Shown here one piece after another: positions 14,824 through 25,598 of a DNA stretch of 32,197 nt (its first letter is position 1; each line of letters starts with the position of its first letter). Origin of the DNA: Candidatus Aminicenantota bacterium (GTDB lineage Bacteria; Acidobacteriota; Aminicenantia; S016-38); assembly GCA_026991555.1 (NCBI GenBank), contig JALXBI010000123.1, positions 1 to 32,197 on the forward strand, written 5' to 3'. The translations under genes were made by a program, and so were the position numbers. The notes under the pieces are model-generated. The model did no database searches. It was not told the DNA's origin and was given only the letters and a program-made list of their open reading frames with translations.

Positions 14824-15351
14824 ATGAAAAAGGCATTAACGGCAATTACAGCATTACTCATTCTGGCTGGGTTTTCCCTGGCTCAAAAGGTGAGAATTGG
14901 AGTGGTAAATCCGGATTACATCCTTGCAAATTCCAAGGAAGGAAAGAAAATCCTCAGCGAACTCCAGGCAATTCAGAAAAGGAAACAGGCAGAAATAGCC
15001 CGCAGGCAGAAGGAAATCCAGGACCTCCAGAGAAAGCTTCAGACCCAGCAGGGGATAATGAGCCAGCAGGCCCTCCAGAACCTGGAGGATAAAATAGTGG
15101 AAAAACAGAAGGCCCTGAAGAGGTATGTGGACGATGCCAAGGACGAACTGGCGAGACTCAATCAAAAGAAACTGGGAGCCTTCCAGCAGAAGATGCTGAA
15201 GGTCATAAAGAAGGTGGCCAAGGCCAAGGGATTGGTGGTGGTGCTTGACCAGCGGCAGCTCATCTACGCTGATCCCGTGGTGGATATTTCCTCTGAGGTC
15301 ATAGGGGAACTGGATAAGATGTTTGACAAACAGATGGGAATAGGAAAATGA
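14824..15351 (+). CDS. skp: Periplasmic chaperone Skp (OmpH family)
   Basis: Holds unfolded outer-membrane proteins in the periplasm for BamA. The 175 residues start with a signal peptide ending near GFSLAQ, then RIGVVNPDYIL, and a long Gln/Lys/Glu-rich coiled coil (about 40-120) forming the jellyfish arms, before the C-terminal strand region KGLVVVLDQRQLIYADP. AGGAGG lies upstream of the ATG, 14 bases after bamA. The stop overlaps fabZ by 4 bases; lpxD, often found here, is missing. Confidence 0.92.
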   Translation: MKKALTAITALLILAGFSLAQKVRIGVVNPDYILANSKEGKKILSELQAIQKRKQAEIARRQKEIQDLQRKLQTQQGIMSQQALQNLEDKIVEKQKALKRYVDDAKDELARLNQKKLGAFQQKMLKVIKKVAKAKGLVVVLDQRQLIYADPVVDISSEVIGELDKMFDKQMGIGK

Positions 15352-19232: not shown

Positions 19233-19238
19233 TATAAT
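19233..19238 (+). promoter_or_regulatory. -10 box 6 bases before the M1 peptidase ATG (leaderless promoter)
   Basis: Perfect TATAAT followed by TGGAAT and then the ATG at 19245. Transcription about 7 bases after the -10 would start on the ATG itself. No Shine-Dalgarno sequence is present. Confidence 0.6.
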
Positions 19239-19244
19239 TGGAAT

Positions 19245-21029
19245 ATGAGGAAACTAATATTTTTCTTAGCTCCCCTTTTTCTATTTTCCGGGGTCACATC
19301 CTATAAAATGGAAGTGACCCTGGAAATAAAGGGAAGGTATAAGGTTTTCGTAAAGGGAAGGGAAGTTATTCAGTGGGAAAACAACGCTAAGGTCCCGGTG
19401 GATAGGATTCCCTTTCATCTTTACCAGAATGCCTTCAGGAAGGGCTCTTCCTTTATGAAGGAAATCGGAGGTCTTCCCCGCAAATGGAAAAAACACGAAG
19501 AATGGTGGGGAAAGGAAGAAATCAAAAGGATAACGGTAAACGGAAAGGACCTGACAGGCACCCTTAAGTTCGTCCAACCCGATGACGGGAATGCAGAGGA
19601 CAGAACCGTGGCAGAAATCACCCTTCCTGAGCCTGCAAAACCCGGGGATCAGCTCACCATTGAGGTGGAGTTTGTCACCAAATTGCCCAAGGCCTTTGCC
19701 CGCTCCGGTTCTGGCGTCGGGTATTATTTCGTATCCCAGTGGTTTCCCAAACCCGGGGTTCTCCTTGACGACGGAAAATGGGTATGCCACCAATATCACA
19801 GAAATGGCGAGTTCTTTTCGGATTTCTCCACCTATGAGGTTAAAATTAAAGCCCCATCCCATCTGGTAATAACCGCCAATGGTGAACTGGTAAAACAGGA
19901 GAAGTCCGGGAAAAACCAGCTCCTTCTCTTCCGCCAGGAACGGGTTCACGACTTCGTATGGGTAGCGGATAAGGACTTTATAAAGGTGGAAGACAGGTTT
20001 TCCTCTCCCAAGCAGCCAGAGGTAAAAATTCTCCTTTTCATTCAGCCGGCTCATCTCAGGCAAAAGGGAAGATATCTTGAAGCCATAAAGAGGGCGTTGA
20101 AGTTCTATTCCGAAAAAATAGGCCCCTATCCCTACAAAAGGATAACCATCATAGACCCGGACATATCGGCCATGAGGACCTCAGGCATGGAATACCCCAC
20201 CCTAATAACAGGGGGGAGCCTGTATCTTCTTCCTAAGGGGATAAAATTTACCGAAGACGTTACCATCCACGAGTTCGGACATCAGTACTGGTACGGGGTG
20301 GTGGCAAACAACGAAACCGACGAAGCATGGCTCGACGAAGGGGTCAACACCTTTTTTGAGGAGAACATCATGGACACATATCCATGGTTTTTTGACATTC
20401 TGGGCCACAAAGCCAGGGACAGCGAAAGGCTGAGGCTTGGCTACATAAAATCCACCTATGCGGATCCCATAATTACCCCATCCTGGAAGTTCTTCCCAGG
20501 AAGTTATTCTGCCAATGTTTACATAAAGGCAGCCCTGACCCTTGAAACATGGAAAAGGCTTGTAGGGGAAGACAAGTTTTTCTCGGCCCTTAGAGAATAT
20601 TACAAAAAATACGCCTTTTCCCATCCTACATCTTCCGATTTCTTCAATACCATGGAGCAATACTTAGGGGATTGGTCAGGACTATGGAAGCCCATGTTTT
20701 ACCGAGCGGGAAAGGTAAACTGGAAGGTTTACGGGATCTGGGGCAAGGAGGTCATCCTGCTCAGGCAAGGCCTGGATGTGGAGGTTCCCGTGGAAGTGGA
20801 GGTGGAAACTCAGGATGGCGAGAAGCACAGGTTCGTGTGGGAGGGTAAATGGTTGAAAAAAAACTTCAGGAAGAAAATTGTTAAGGTAACTATAGATCCT
20901 GATGAGAAATTGATGATTGATGCCAATCCCTTTGACAACCGCTGGGCCAGGAAATCCCCCGTCGCCTCCCGCTTAGCCTGGCATCTCCTGGTGAACATCC
21001 AGGCCATATTTTTGAATCTATTACCTTAG
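19245..21029 (+). CDS. Secreted M1-family (gluzincin) metallopeptidase
   Basis: A 594-residue zinc aminopeptidase-like protein. A signal peptide (about 1-19) leads into an N-terminal beta domain, then the catalytic domain with HEFGHQYW near residues 342-349 and the downstream ligand Glu in DEAWLDEGVNTFFEE near 361-375. GMEYPTLI corresponds to the GAMEN region in altered form. The C-terminal beta region is short and ends in a hydrophobic stretch (AWHLLVNIQAIFLNLLP) that may be a membrane anchor. Likely periplasmic. The membrane protein gene follows after 9 bases. Confidence 0.9.
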   Translation: MRKLIFFLAPLFLFSGVTSYKMEVTLEIKGRYKVFVKGREVIQWENNAKVPVDRIPFHLYQNAFRKGSSFMKEIGGLPRKWKKHEEWWGKEEIKRITVNGKDLTGTLKFVQPDDGNAEDRTVAEITLPEPAKPGDQLTIEVEFVTKLPKAFARSGSGVGYYFVSQWFPKPGVLLDDGKWVCHQYHRNGEFFSDFSTYEVKIKAPSHLVITANGELVKQEKSGKNQLLLFRQERVHDFVWVADKDFIKVEDRFSSPKQPEVKILLFIQPAHLRQKGRYLEAIKRALKFYSEKIGPYPYKRITIIDPDISAMRTSGMEYPTLITGGSLYLLPKGIKFTEDVTIHEFGHQYWYGVVANNETDEAWLDEGVNTFFEENIMDTYPWFFDILGHKARDSERLRLGYIKSTYADPIITPSWKFFPGSYSANVYIKAALTLETWKRLVGEDKFFSALREYYKKYAFSHPTSSDFFNTMEQYLGDWSGLWKPMFYRAGKVNWKVYGIWGKEVILLRQGLDVEVPVEVEVETQDGEKHRFVWEGKWLKKNFRKKIVKVTIDPDEKLMIDANPFDNRWARKSPVASRLAWHLLVNIQAIFLNLLP

Positions 21030-21038
21030 GAGAGCAAA

Positions 21039-21836
21039 ATGAAGGGAATACTAACATATCTGGAGGGTTTAAAGGAAGCGGCATGGGAATTGAGGTATAG
21101 CCTCTACATATGGCTTTTATCCCTGGGCTTTTCCCTTTCAATCTACATTCCTGTTACCAAGTTTTTCTCCCGCAGGGTGGGACATTTCTCCGACTGGGCC
21201 TATCTTCAAGAACATCCGGCCTATATATCCCTGCTCTATTCCGATTGGGGGCTTCTCTTTTCCTTTGTGTTTTCTCTGTTTCTTATCTTCTACATAGCCA
21301 GTTTAATAGTAGAAGGGGGAATATGGGCTGGAATTTTGAGAAGGGAGCCCTTTTCCCACTGGAGACGGTATTTTTCAAGGTTTTTGCTCCTTGAGATTCT
21401 AACCCCCATAGTTTATCTACCCTTCCTGGTCATTGCAGGGGCCCTGGCCCTTCTTCTAAAACCCATACCTTATTATCATGAAAAGGTATTCTCGTGGGCC
21501 GTGATAATTTACCTTCTTATCCTGATATTTCTCATTTTCCTGGCCTCGGTTACCAAGGATTACGCCAAGATTTCCGTGGTAAGGGACAATTCCTCGTGCT
21601 TGCGGGCCATATTTTACGCCTGGAAAGTAGGGTTCAGCCGCTGGTTCTCCTCCGCAATTATGGGAATTCTCGCTTTTGTTCTTTGGGCTATTCCCTTCTT
21701 CCTGTTTAAGGACCTGTTTTCTTCCCTCCCGTCCTTTCTTTTCTTCCTCCTCCTTCAAATTCCTCTGCTTCTAAAAGCCTACACAAGGGTTTCCCTTTTC
21801 TACGGGGAGAAATACCTGAGCCGGAACTTTTCCTGA
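21039..21836 (+). CDS. Multi-pass membrane protein of unknown function
   Basis: A 265-residue protein not recognised as a named family. About six hydrophobic spans are visible (near 22-42, 70-95, 110-140, 145-170, 200-225, 228-250), with Arg/Lys-rich loops such as RREPFSHWRRYF. The overall look is like DUF4013-type or glycerophosphodiesterase membrane-domain proteins, without proof. AGGAGAG precedes the ATG. It is probably co-transcribed with the M1 peptidase; a role as its membrane partner is possible but unsupported. Confidence 0.75.
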   Translation: MKGILTYLEGLKEAAWELRYSLYIWLLSLGFSLSIYIPVTKFFSRRVGHFSDWAYLQEHPAYISLLYSDWGLLFSFVFSLFLIFYIASLIVEGGIWAGILRREPFSHWRRYFSRFLLLEILTPIVYLPFLVIAGALALLLKPIPYYHEKVFSWAVIIYLLILIFLIFLASVTKDYAKISVVRDNSSCLRAIFYAWKVGFSRWFSSAIMGILAFVLWAIPFFLFKDLFSSLPSFLFFLLLQIPLLLKAYTRVSLFYGEKYLSRNFS

Positions 21837-21840
21837 GTTA

Positions 21841-21846
21841 TATAAT
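21841..21846 (+). promoter_or_regulatory. -10 box 6 bases before the znuA-like ATG (leaderless promoter)
   Basis: Perfect TATAAT, then AAACCT and ATG at 21853. No Shine-Dalgarno sequence lies between. Same geometry as at 19233 and 24840. Confidence 0.6.
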
Positions 21847-21852
21847 AAACCT

Positions 21853-22626
21853 ATGAAAAAGGTCGTTTTTTTTCTTTTCCCGCTGCTTCTCTTCTCTCAG
21901 GTAGCCGTCTCCATAAAGCCACTGGCCTTAGTGGTAAGGGAAATCTATCCGGGAAAGGTAATGGTGGTCGTTCCCCCGAACCGTTCCCCCCATATTTTCT
22001 CCCCAAGCCCGGGCCAGGTCAGAGAAATACTCAGAGCAAAACTCCTGTTCAAAATAGGAGCTGGTCTTGAACCATGGAGCATTCCCTCGGCAAGGGAAGT
22101 GGAACTTTCTGCTGCCGTTTCCCTGATTTCCAAAGAGGGAAAGCCCAATCCCCATTACTGGCTTTCCCCCAAAAGAATGCTACAGGCCCTCGATTTAATG
22201 GAAAAAGTCCTGGAGGATGCTTTTCCCCAACTCAGGAAGGAGATCAGAAAAAGGGCTGAAAGGGAGAGGGAAAAACTTGAGGCCCTGGACCGCCGGGTGG
22301 CTGCTCTTCTTTCTCCTGTAAGGAACAGGATGCTGATTCTTTACAGGCCTGCCTGGCTATACTTGGTGAAAGACTATGGCTTCCCAGAGCCTGAAATTCT
22401 TACCTCAGACCCATCCCGGCCACCGGCCCCTTCAGGACTCGGAAAAATTAAGGGAGACCTTCTTATATGCGATCCCTCCCTTCCCCGGGAAAAAGCCAAA
22501 GTCCTATCCCGGTGGCTGAGAGTTCCCCTTGTTTACTTGGATCCCCTGGCCAGCTTCAGGGATTATTCTTCCTACAGCGAATTCATTCTGGAAAATGTCA
22601 CGAAATTAGCAGAGGCCCTCAAATGA
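21853..22626 (+). CDS. ZnuA/TroA-family metal ABC transporter substrate-binding protein, one ligand His replaced
   Basis: A 257-residue cluster A-I binding protein. Signal peptide about 1-19, then SIKPLALVV, the first ligand region SPHIFSP, the second PHYWLSP and a long linking helix (about 110-150). The third site, FHDAYGYF in E. coli ZnuA, aligns with LYRPAWLYL, putting Arg where the third His should be. The final acidic ligand in LDPL is kept. There is no His-rich loop. With the znuB/znuC-type genes behind it, it should deliver a divalent metal, but metal choice is uncertain. Confidence 0.87.
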   Translation: MKKVVFFLFPLLLFSQVAVSIKPLALVVREIYPGKVMVVVPPNRSPHIFSPSPGQVREILRAKLLFKIGAGLEPWSIPSAREVELSAAVSLISKEGKPNPHYWLSPKRMLQALDLMEKVLEDAFPQLRKEIRKRAEREREKLEALDRRVAALLSPVRNRMLILYRPAWLYLVKDYGFPEPEILTSDPSRPPAPSGLGKIKGDLLICDPSLPREKAKVLSRWLRVPLVYLDPLASFRDYSSYSEFILENVTKLAEALK

Positions 22627-23393
22627 AAGCTCTGGAAGTAAGGAAAGTGTGGTTTACATACCAGAGCGAGCCTGTATTAAAGAACATAAACTTCAGCGTT
22701 GAGGAAGGGGAACTGGTGGCCATTCTGGGGCCCAACGGGGCAGGAAAAACCACCCTGCTCAAGATAATCCTGGGCTTGCTTAAACCCCAGAAGGGAGAAG
22801 TCAGGATTTTCGGACTCCCCCCTGAAAAAGCCAGGGGTATTGTGGGTTATGTGCCCCAGAATCTTTCTCCAAATCGGAGGATGCCCATAACAGCAGAGGC
22901 GGTGGTTCTCATGGGAGCCTACAGGGGCTTCCTGAAACCCCTGGGAAAGGAAATCCGTAGGGCAGTGGAAGAAGTCCTCCAACAGGTGGGAATGATAGCC
23001 TTCAGAAAGAGGCTTTTCGGGGAACTTTCCGGGGGACAAAGGCAGAGGGTTCTCATTGCAAGGGCCCTGGTGAGAAGGCCAAAACTGTTAATCCTGGACG
23101 AGCCGGAAACCGGCCTGGACCCCTCCTTTCAGGAGGGATTTTACAAACTCCTTCTCAGGGTAAAGCAGGCCTACGGCACCACTATTTTAATCGTAACCCA
23201 CGATGTCATGGCAGTATCCCAGCGGGTCTCTTCTATAGCGTGTCTGAACAGGGAACTGGTAGCCCATGGAAGACCACAGGAGGTTCTAACTGGGGAAAAT
23301 CTAAAATGCCTCTACGGGGAAGCAGCGGCCTATTTCGGACACGGTCCTGCCCCACACATGGTGGTGGAGGAACACAGTGGCGGAAATTTTTAG
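22623..23393 (+). CDS. znuC: Metal ABC transporter ATP-binding protein (ZnuC-like)
   Basis: A 256-residue ATPase with Walker A GPNGAGKTT near 36-44, Q-loop VGYVPQN, signature LSGGQRQRVLIARAL, Walker B LLILDEPETGLD and the THD H-loop. The frame is open further upstream, but the ATG at 22623 overlaps the substrate-binding protein stop (ATGA) and gives the usual N-terminus. It overlaps the permease gene by 17 bases. Zinc, manganese or iron are possible cargo. Confidence 0.92.
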   Translation: MKALEVRKVWFTYQSEPVLKNINFSVEEGELVAILGPNGAGKTTLLKIILGLLKPQKGEVRIFGLPPEKARGIVGYVPQNLSPNRRMPITAEAVVLMGAYRGFLKPLGKEIRRAVEEVLQQVGMIAFRKRLFGELSGGQRQRVLIARALVRRPKLLILDEPETGLDPSFQEGFYKLLLRVKQAYGTTILIVTHDVMAVSQRVSSIACLNRELVAHGRPQEVLTGENLKCLYGEAAAYFGHGPAPHMVVEEHSGGNF

Positions 23394-24183
23394 CCTTCCC
23401 TTTATGAGAAATGCCCTTCTGGCAGGGCTTGCAGTTTCGGTAGCAGCAGCCCTGATAGGAAGTTTCGTGGTGGCCAGAAGGATGGCCTTTATTGGCGCAG
23501 GAATAGCCCACTCCTCCTTTGCCGGAGTGGTGATTGGCTTTCTCCTGGGAATAAATCCCCTGATTTCAGCAGGTATTTTTGCCTCTTTGACCGGTCTGTC
23601 CATAGGTTTTCTTTCAAGAAACTACAAAATAGAGGAGGAAAGCGCGGTAGGGGTTTTCTTTCCTTTTTCCATGGCCCTGGGAATAATCCTCCTGGGTTTT
23701 GTAAAGGGATTCACCCCTGACATAATGGGCTACCTTTTCGGGGATGTGCTCCTGGTGGGAAAAACCGAGATTTTACTTTCCTTCCTCACCATGGGGCTGG
23801 TTATAGTTTTCTTTCTGATGTTCTTTAGAGAAATGGTTTATTCTACCTTTGACGAGGAAACATCGAGGGTTCTTGGAATAAAGGTGGCTCTGGTCTACTA
23901 CCTTTTCCTTTTCCTCAGTTCAGTAACTATAGTGGTAAGCATAAAGGTAGTGGGAATTATCCTGCTGTCGGGCCTTCTCGTAATCCCCCCTCTTGCTGCC
24001 CTTCAGTTCGCAAAAAACATGAAATCCTATGTAATTTTATCTGTGTTATTCGGAATACTCTCGTCGGTGGGGGGATTGTTCTTATCTTATTGGTTAAACC
24101 TTCCTTCTGGAGCTACCATAATATCTGTAAGTTTCCTCCTTCTCCTTGCTTCCGGACTTACGAGAAAACTGGTTTTCCGGTAA
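23377..24183 (+). CDS. znuB: Metal ABC transporter permease (ZnuB-like)
   Basis: A 268-residue ABC-3 family permease with about eight membrane spans. FMRNALLAGLAVS, RRMAFIGAGIAHSSFAGV and GIILLSGLLVIPPLAAL are family signatures. Start is GTG at 23377, preceded by GGAGG and overlapping the ATPase gene by 17 bases. Last gene of the operon; 16 bases separate it from a convergent gene and no hairpin terminator is visible there. Confidence 0.92.
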   Translation: MAEIFSLPFMRNALLAGLAVSVAAALIGSFVVARRMAFIGAGIAHSSFAGVVIGFLLGINPLISAGIFASLTGLSIGFLSRNYKIEEESAVGVFFPFSMALGIILLGFVKGFTPDIMGYLFGDVLLVGKTEILLSFLTMGLVIVFFLMFFREMVYSTFDEETSRVLGIKVALVYYLFLFLSSVTIVVSIKVVGIILLSGLLVIPPLAALQFAKNMKSYVILSVLFGILSSVGGLFLSYWLNLPSGATIISVSFLLLLASGLTRKLVFR

Positions 24184-24199
24184 ATAAATCCTTGGGCAA

Positions 24200-24769
24200 T
24201 TACTCTTCAAATATAAGCTTCAGGGGTTCCTCTTTGACCTGAGGAAGCTCCCTTATAATTTTGTAGAATTCGATTATGTCCTGGAAGGGACCCTCTACGA
24301 GGTATTCTCCCTCGTAAACATAGGGATGAAGAGGAGCATACATTTCCGTCTGCTCCGCCTCCTTTATGTAAGTCTCCTTCTCGTCGTGTTTCTTTATATA
24401 TTCGGCAGGAAGTTTCTCGATGGCCCTTTTCAGTTTTTCTGCTATTTCCCTGTTGTAAATGGCAAAGCTGAATTTTACTGAAGCCGCTTTTATAGGTCTT
24501 ACAGACCGTAGCCTTAGCCCGAGCCTATCCGTGCACCTTTCTATGCATTTTCTAAGCTCCTCTGCCACATCTCCCCTGACCACGAAGTGGGTAAGATTCT
24601 CCAGCCCAAACCACTCCCTGAGGGAATCAGATAGGGTAGACCTTTCAATTCCCAGGACTTTACTGAAATAAACCACCTCTTCCTCTATTCCCTTTCCTCT
24701 GAGCCACCCATAGACAAATCCCTTGGTTAAAAGCAAAGGCGCTTCCACCACGAATTCATAGAAGGTCAT
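24200..24769 (-). CDS. Conserved-looking protein of unknown function
   Basis: A 189-residue soluble protein I do not recognise. It opens with the aromatic MTFYEFVVEAPLLLTKGFVYG, has mixed alpha/beta character with a basic middle (LRLRSVRPIKAASVKF near 84-99) and two similar-looking hydrophobic-charged helices, and ends acidic. No signal peptide, membrane span or known catalytic motif is seen. The two Cys, at about 74 and 78, form a CIERC pair. AAAGGAGG lies before the ATG and a good promoter precedes it, so it is very likely a real, separately transcribed gene. Confidence 0.72.
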   Translation of the reverse strand: MTFYEFVVEAPLLLTKGFVYGWLRGKGIEEEVVYFSKVLGIERSTLSDSLREWFGLENLTHFVVRGDVAEELRKCIERCTDRLGLRLRSVRPIKAASVKFSFAIYNREIAEKLKRAIEKLPAEYIKKHDEKETYIKEAEQTEMYAPLHPYVYEGEYLVEGPFQDIIEFYKIIRELPQVKEEPLKLIFEE

Positions 24770-24799
24770 TTTTTCCTCCTTTAACCTGTTTAAGAAGCC

Positions 24800-24828
24800 A
24801 TATTACCAGGAGGAGATTTTTTTTTCAA
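24800..24828 (-). promoter_or_regulatory. Sigma-70-type promoter for the 24200-24769 gene
   Basis: On the minus strand TTGAAA (24823-24828), 17-base A-rich spacer, TAATAT (24800-24805). Predicted start near 24793 leaves a leader of about 24 bases that includes AAAGGAGG. Confidence 0.65.
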
Positions 24829-24839
24829 GGCCACGATGG

Positions 24840-24845
24840 TAGAAT
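24840..24845 (+). promoter_or_regulatory. -10 box 6 bases before the ATG at 24852 (leaderless promoter)
   Basis: TAGAAT followed by TTGTCC and ATG. No Shine-Dalgarno sequence lies near the ATG. It is divergent from the minus-strand promoter at 24800-24828. Confidence 0.5.
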
Positions 24846-24851
24846 TTGTCC

Positions 24852-25598
24852 ATGAGAAAATTGTTGCCCTTCATTATCGCAGTGTCTCTGGTTTTGCCTT
24901 TAAAGGCAATAGGGTTTGAATTTTTCGGTGGAGCAGGAGTTTGGTCTCTCAATCTTCTCAAAGGCAAAATCGAAGATTTCGCCCGCGACAGAGTGGACGA
25001 GGTTTTAAAGAGTAAGCTTGAGGAGGAATATCCTCAGCTGAAGGGAGCAGATTACCAGCATTCGGAAACTTTTTCTTCAGGGGGTGGGAATTTTTCGGGG
25101 GGATTCAGGATTTATCCCGGCGGGAAAAATTCGGGCTTCAGCCTCGGATTTAGCTTCATAAAGCTCACCATGGATGTAAGGCTTGACGGGGATATAACTG
25201 TTACCAAAGATAGCGACCGTGCCGAAATATCAGGAGGAGGAAAGGTGGTCATTAATTCCTATGGAGCCATGCTTTCCATGAGGGGTCTATTTTTCCCTTC
25301 CCTTCCCGTAACCCCTTACATTTCCTTGGGGTTAGGAGCTGGAACCCTTCAGGGAGAAGCCTCTTATGAGGGCCATGGCACCGTGTGGTATCGGGGAAAT
25401 CAGGAAGATTTCAGTCAAAAGGAAACCAAAACTATAGACCAGCTCAGGCAAGAGGGTAAAGACATCCCCAGTGTCCTTCCCATTTTCCAGCTGGGTATAG
25501 GGATAGATGGAATGGTGGGTGAAGGCTTTTCCTTTTTTGTAGAAGGTGGGATTCTTGATGGTTTCTATCTGGGCGGCGGGATTCTCTACAGGTTCTAA
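24852..25598 (+). CDS. Exported beta-rich protein, probably outer membrane or periplasmic
   Basis: A 248-residue protein with signal peptide (about 1-20, MRKLLPFIIAVSLVLPLKA), then FEFFGGAGVWSL and many alternating Gly/aromatic beta strands, ending in GGILYRF with terminal Phe, as in outer-membrane barrels. Segments such as PYISLGLGAGTLQGEASY resemble small OMP barrels. The frame opens at TTG 24846, but the ATG at 24852 fits the signal peptide and the -10 spacing. Function unknown. Its stop overlaps the convergent glnA stop. Confidence 0.75.
   Translation: MRKLLPFIIAVSLVLPLKAIGFEFFGGAGVWSLNLLKGKIEDFARDRVDEVLKSKLEEEYPQLKGADYQHSETFSSGGGNFSGGFRIYPGGKNSGFSLGFSFIKLTMDVRLDGDITVTKDSDRAEISGGGKVVINSYGAMLSMRGLFFPSLPVTPYISLGLGAGTLQGEASYEGHGTVWYRGNQEDFSQKETKTIDQLRQEGKDIPSVLPIFQLGIGIDGMVGEGFSFFVEGGILDGFYLGGGILYRF

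Follow-up and report, generated by a model that had tools for sequence, protein, structure and literature searches.

Three genes in the window, by which we mean the whole analysed stretch of 32,197 nt, are very probably leaderless: at each of them the -10 element of a housekeeping-sigma promoter would place the transcription start on the ATG. Judged by spacing, promoter features and conservation, leaderless starts appear as a real, genome-wide and evolutionarily conserved trait of this genome, but one of a kind known in bacteria. An export-linked mode of initiation is not revealed by them.

The first-pass annotation had placed TATAAT, TATAAT and TAGAAT boxes before three ATG codons, and its coordinates proved exact (Table 1). 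The distance from box to ATG (the gap) is 6 nt at all three sites, and no Shine-Dalgarno (SD) sequence lies in the usual place at the starts 19245, 21853 and 24852. Both TATAAT boxes are perfect and stand without a clear -35 element or TG; a TG is present at the third site. A consensus promoter scan missed all three, because it requires a -35. Signal peptides had been ascribed to the three products as well, and inspection by eye together with a heuristic predictor agreed, with a charged n-region followed by a hydrophobic stretch in each.

Table 1. Predicted promoter boxes and the genes they precede or accompany, in window positions.
Feature	Position	Strand	Remarks
-10 box TATAAT, M1-peptidase gene	19233..19238	+	predicted leaderless promoter; starts 18 nt past the preceding gene's stop; ATG 19245
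Predicted exported M1-family metallopeptidase, 594 aa	19245..21029	+	Peptidase_M1 at residues 278-473, PF01433, E=1e-15; signal peptide MRKLIFFLAPLFLFSGVTS
-10 box TATAAT, znuA	21841..21846	+	predicted leaderless promoter; ATG 21853
ZnuA-type periplasmic metal-binding protein, 257 aa	21853..22626	+	PF01297, E=9e-35; signal peptide; heads a znuACB-like set
ABC transporter ATPase (ZnuC-like)	22623..23393	+	PF00005; downstream of znuA
ABC-3 family permease (ZnuB-like)	23377..24183	+	PF00950, E=2e-68
-10 box TAGAAT, outer-membrane-type gene	24840..24845	+	TG one base upstream (extended -10); predicted leaderless promoter; ATG 24852
Exported protein, 248 aa, glycine-rich	24852..25598	+	signal peptide; no Pfam family match

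Relatives of the glycine-rich protein were found in 28 of the 31 genomes of the class that were searched. Our guess is that it may form an outer-membrane barrel, and it possibly represents an uncharacterised outer-membrane family. Divergent from its gene lies another one on the minus strand (24200-24769), which encodes a 189-aa protein without a Pfam family and has a strong SD sequence (AAAGGAGG).

The source genome (G000) comprises 1.90 Mb in 125 contigs, of which the window is the entire contig 123. Metagenome genomes of Candidatus Aminicenantes hold the nearest named relatives of its lysyl-tRNA synthetase, with identities of 53-58%, and the genome probably belongs to an Aminicenantes-related lineage of Acidobacteriota. 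In a sample of 1.21 Mb (64%) 982 genes were called by codon-pair statistics, and starts were assigned from coding potential and start codon alone, with upstream signals ignored. At ATG starts, TATAAT-like boxes show a sharp peak at a gap of exactly 6 nt, with 62 boxes in comparison to a mean of 5.3 per other gap (Poisson p about 2e-43), and a minor peak of 18 boxes at gap 7. GTG starts carried 11 gap-6 boxes compared to 0.37, and none of the 96 TTG starts in the sample (stretches L001-L100) had one. Leaderless transcripts of mycobacteria start with ATG or GTG. SD-like tetramers form a separate peak at 5-8 nt, so both start modes coexist in this genome. As a whole-genome pattern count, TAWAAT-N6-ATG occurs 165 times and TAWAAT-N9-ATG 46 times. 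A corresponding excess was obtained for a congener (104 versus 51), for a sister genus (124 versus 69) and for some other families of the class; it was not seen in class members such as G047, G093 and G111.

In the window the signal sits at real gene starts. The loose pattern TANNNT-N6-ATG, counted over the whole window irrespective of gene starts, shows no excess (11 versus 9.7 expected). A TATAAT box with at most one mismatch stands at gap 6 before about 0.2% of internal ATGs, and about 0.07 such boxes would be expected by chance among the roughly 33 genes of the window, compared to the three observed. Within genes, the combination of a TATAAT-like box, N6 and ATG was counted 15 times versus about 26 at neighbouring gaps. 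This count, a post hoc one in which codon phase is a confounder, is suggestive of a possible avoidance of false leaderless starts inside genes, which we do not claim.

Alignment of the 68 leaderless ATG sites revealed T and G at -15/-14, a T-rich stretch at -36 to -34 and C or T at -1, features that we read as marks of sigma-70 promoters with +1 on the A of the ATG. SD sequences of 5 or more occur in 6% of the leaderless genes in comparison to 53% of the other genes. Roughly 7-8% of the ATG genes of this genome would start leaderless, whatever the fate of the protein. For the three genes in the window we propose that the boxes act as -10 elements of ordinary housekeeping-sigma promoters, that transcription would begin on the A of the ATG, and that the resulting mRNAs would be leaderless. 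The 5'-terminal AUG would then be translated without SD pairing, presumably by binding of 70S ribosomes (or 30S-IF2), a mechanism taken from other bacteria.

The boxes were followed through orthologous genes in related genomes. For znuA, gap 6 is kept in all four members of the genus, in both sister-genus genomes that carry znuA and in two genomes from a different family (families f1 and f6), down to a protein identity of 28-31%. In G004 and G152 znuA does not adjoin the M1-peptidase gene and the box is still present, which indicates that the box belongs to znuA itself rather than to the gene upstream of it. For the outer-membrane-type gene, all four genus members keep gap 6, and three sister-genus genomes show CAGAAT or CATTAT at gap 6 with a -35 element of the TTGAC type (TTGACA, TTGACT or TTGACC) 16-17 nt upstream. 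The box is kept across family f1; SD sequences are used in most of the more distant relatives. The M1-peptidase gene shares its spacing with the closest species only: among its orthologues (L181-L186) the gap is 6 in the source genome and its closest relative G149 and 9 in G150 and G034, and in the sister genus (G152, G004) a leader with an SD sequence comes after TATAAG. There, the start mode appears to have been changed by a small insertion or deletion that separates the -10 element and the ATG differently. Box and spacing are hence conserved as under selection across families for znuA, across one family for the outer-membrane-type gene, and in the closest species only for the peptidase.

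The comparison was also made more broadly. Of five leaderless genes with an orthologue start in a sample of 0.38 Mb of G034, four retain the box at a gap of 6, compared to 0 of 115 other genes, and the remaining one shows a gap of 7. All four species sampled from the genus have the gap-6 box at gyrB, mutL and def; in the sister genus the gap is 7 for gyrB and mutL. Orthologues of def (L328-L347) from several families of the class (e.g. L335, L343, L344 and L347) show TANNNT at gap 6, which makes def a conserved leaderless candidate. That znuA and def, with gap-6 boxes in several families, are kept leaderless for a regulatory reason and not as an interchangeable start mode is a reading to which we give a low probability; translation might, for example, continue when zinc shortage or stress alters the ribosomes.

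The orthologues whose gap is 7 (sister-genus gyrB and mutL) or 9 (the M1 peptidase of G150 and G034), together with the minor gap-7 peak, would fit a transcription start 1-4 nt off the ATG, with a very short leader and translation that is still free of SD pairing. Gap 6 dominates, though, and the pyrimidine at -1 and the A at +1 fit a start exactly on the ATG, so that we consider such short leaders improbable for the three genes. The boxes could also be chance matches in AT-rich DNA, with SD-less translation from read-through or upstream transcripts. Same-strand stops 29 nt before the start 19245 and 16 nt before the start 21853 make a coupling of these two genes to an upstream transcript possible, and 270 of 981 sampled genes lack both box and SD, so other SD-less translation exists here. 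Against chance stand the peak that falls at exactly 6 nt across the genome and the persistence of the znuA box next to different neighbours in G004 and G152, which leave this explanation with very little probability. Transcription initiation on the start codon, as proposed by the first-pass annotation, is in comparison well supported by the spacing peak, the promoter features and the conservation.

The same annotation had suggested that leaderless initiation may mark a class of exported proteins, to be checked by a genome scan for the box at 6 nt combined with a signal-peptide test. The scan returned the excess of this spacing described above, but no enrichment of signal peptides. Signal-peptide-like N-termini were found for 13 of 68 leaderless and 116 of 728 other ATG genes, corresponding to an odds ratio (OR) of 1.25 (p=0.49) with a 95% confidence interval of 0.60-2.40 that leaves room for an export effect up to about twofold. 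The OR was 0.90 against genes with a strong SD and 0.71 when only promoter-proximal genes were compared, and no significant enrichment appeared under several set definitions and controls. The heuristic predictor also scored an NAD-epimerase-like protein (L086) as positive; leaderless exported genes are therefore over-counted, if anything. Besides gyrB, mutL and def, which encode cytoplasmic products and have conserved leaderless starts, the leaderless set includes genes for a Mur ligase, an exonuclease III-type nuclease, a Fur-family regulator and a KptA-type phosphotransferase. Conversely, the window genes at 14824 and 29359 encode exported products and have SD sequences. According to literature, cellular-process categories such as secretion have relatively low leaderless proportions (Zheng et al. 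2011, PMC3160421), and the open literature searched yielded no paper that ties a leaderless start to signal peptides. The signal peptides of the three products speak for an export class, which we nevertheless regard as having next to no probability; the three out of three in the window are a local coincidence.

Sequence-level, conservation-tested evidence for leaderless genes now reaches an uncultured lineage near Candidatus Aminicenantes. For this lineage it follows that the annotation of start codons should not depend on SD sequences alone. The switches of the M1-peptidase gene among close species (6 nt, 9 nt, SD leader) further make the lineage tractable for studying how leaderless and leadered starts interconvert.

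The starts described here resemble the TA-led leaderless genes that were reported in 207 of 953 bacterial genomes, among them all three Acidobacteria genomes with proportions of 9.7-19.4% (mean 13.3%) (Zheng et al. 2011, PMC3160421). Like these, the genes have a box at the distance that would put +1 on the start codon (TATAAT or TANNNT about 12 bp upstream), lack an SD and start with ATG or GTG; a TG before the box is shared with some low-GC genomes of that study. In contrast to that work, the share here is about 7-8% of ATG genes and the conservation of the spacing was checked orthologue by orthologue. The genome set of 2011 would presumably not have covered this lineage. In Deinococcus, a -10 motif 6-7 bp before open reading frames was tested experimentally as the element that drives leaderless genes, with spacing requirements and without bias to particular pathways (PMC12340547). 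The position of the motif is similar here. Deinococcus-Thermus differs in its share of about one third of genes and in a looser TANNNT, in comparison to the smaller share and the stronger TATAAT-like box, often with TG, found here. In mycobacteria, which belong to another phylum, leaderless transcripts are a common genome-wide feature too (PMC4633059). Experiments support the Deinococcus-Thermus case, and RNA-seq and ribosome profiling the mycobacterial one; the present case is built from sequence alone and extends the same pattern of leaderless starts.
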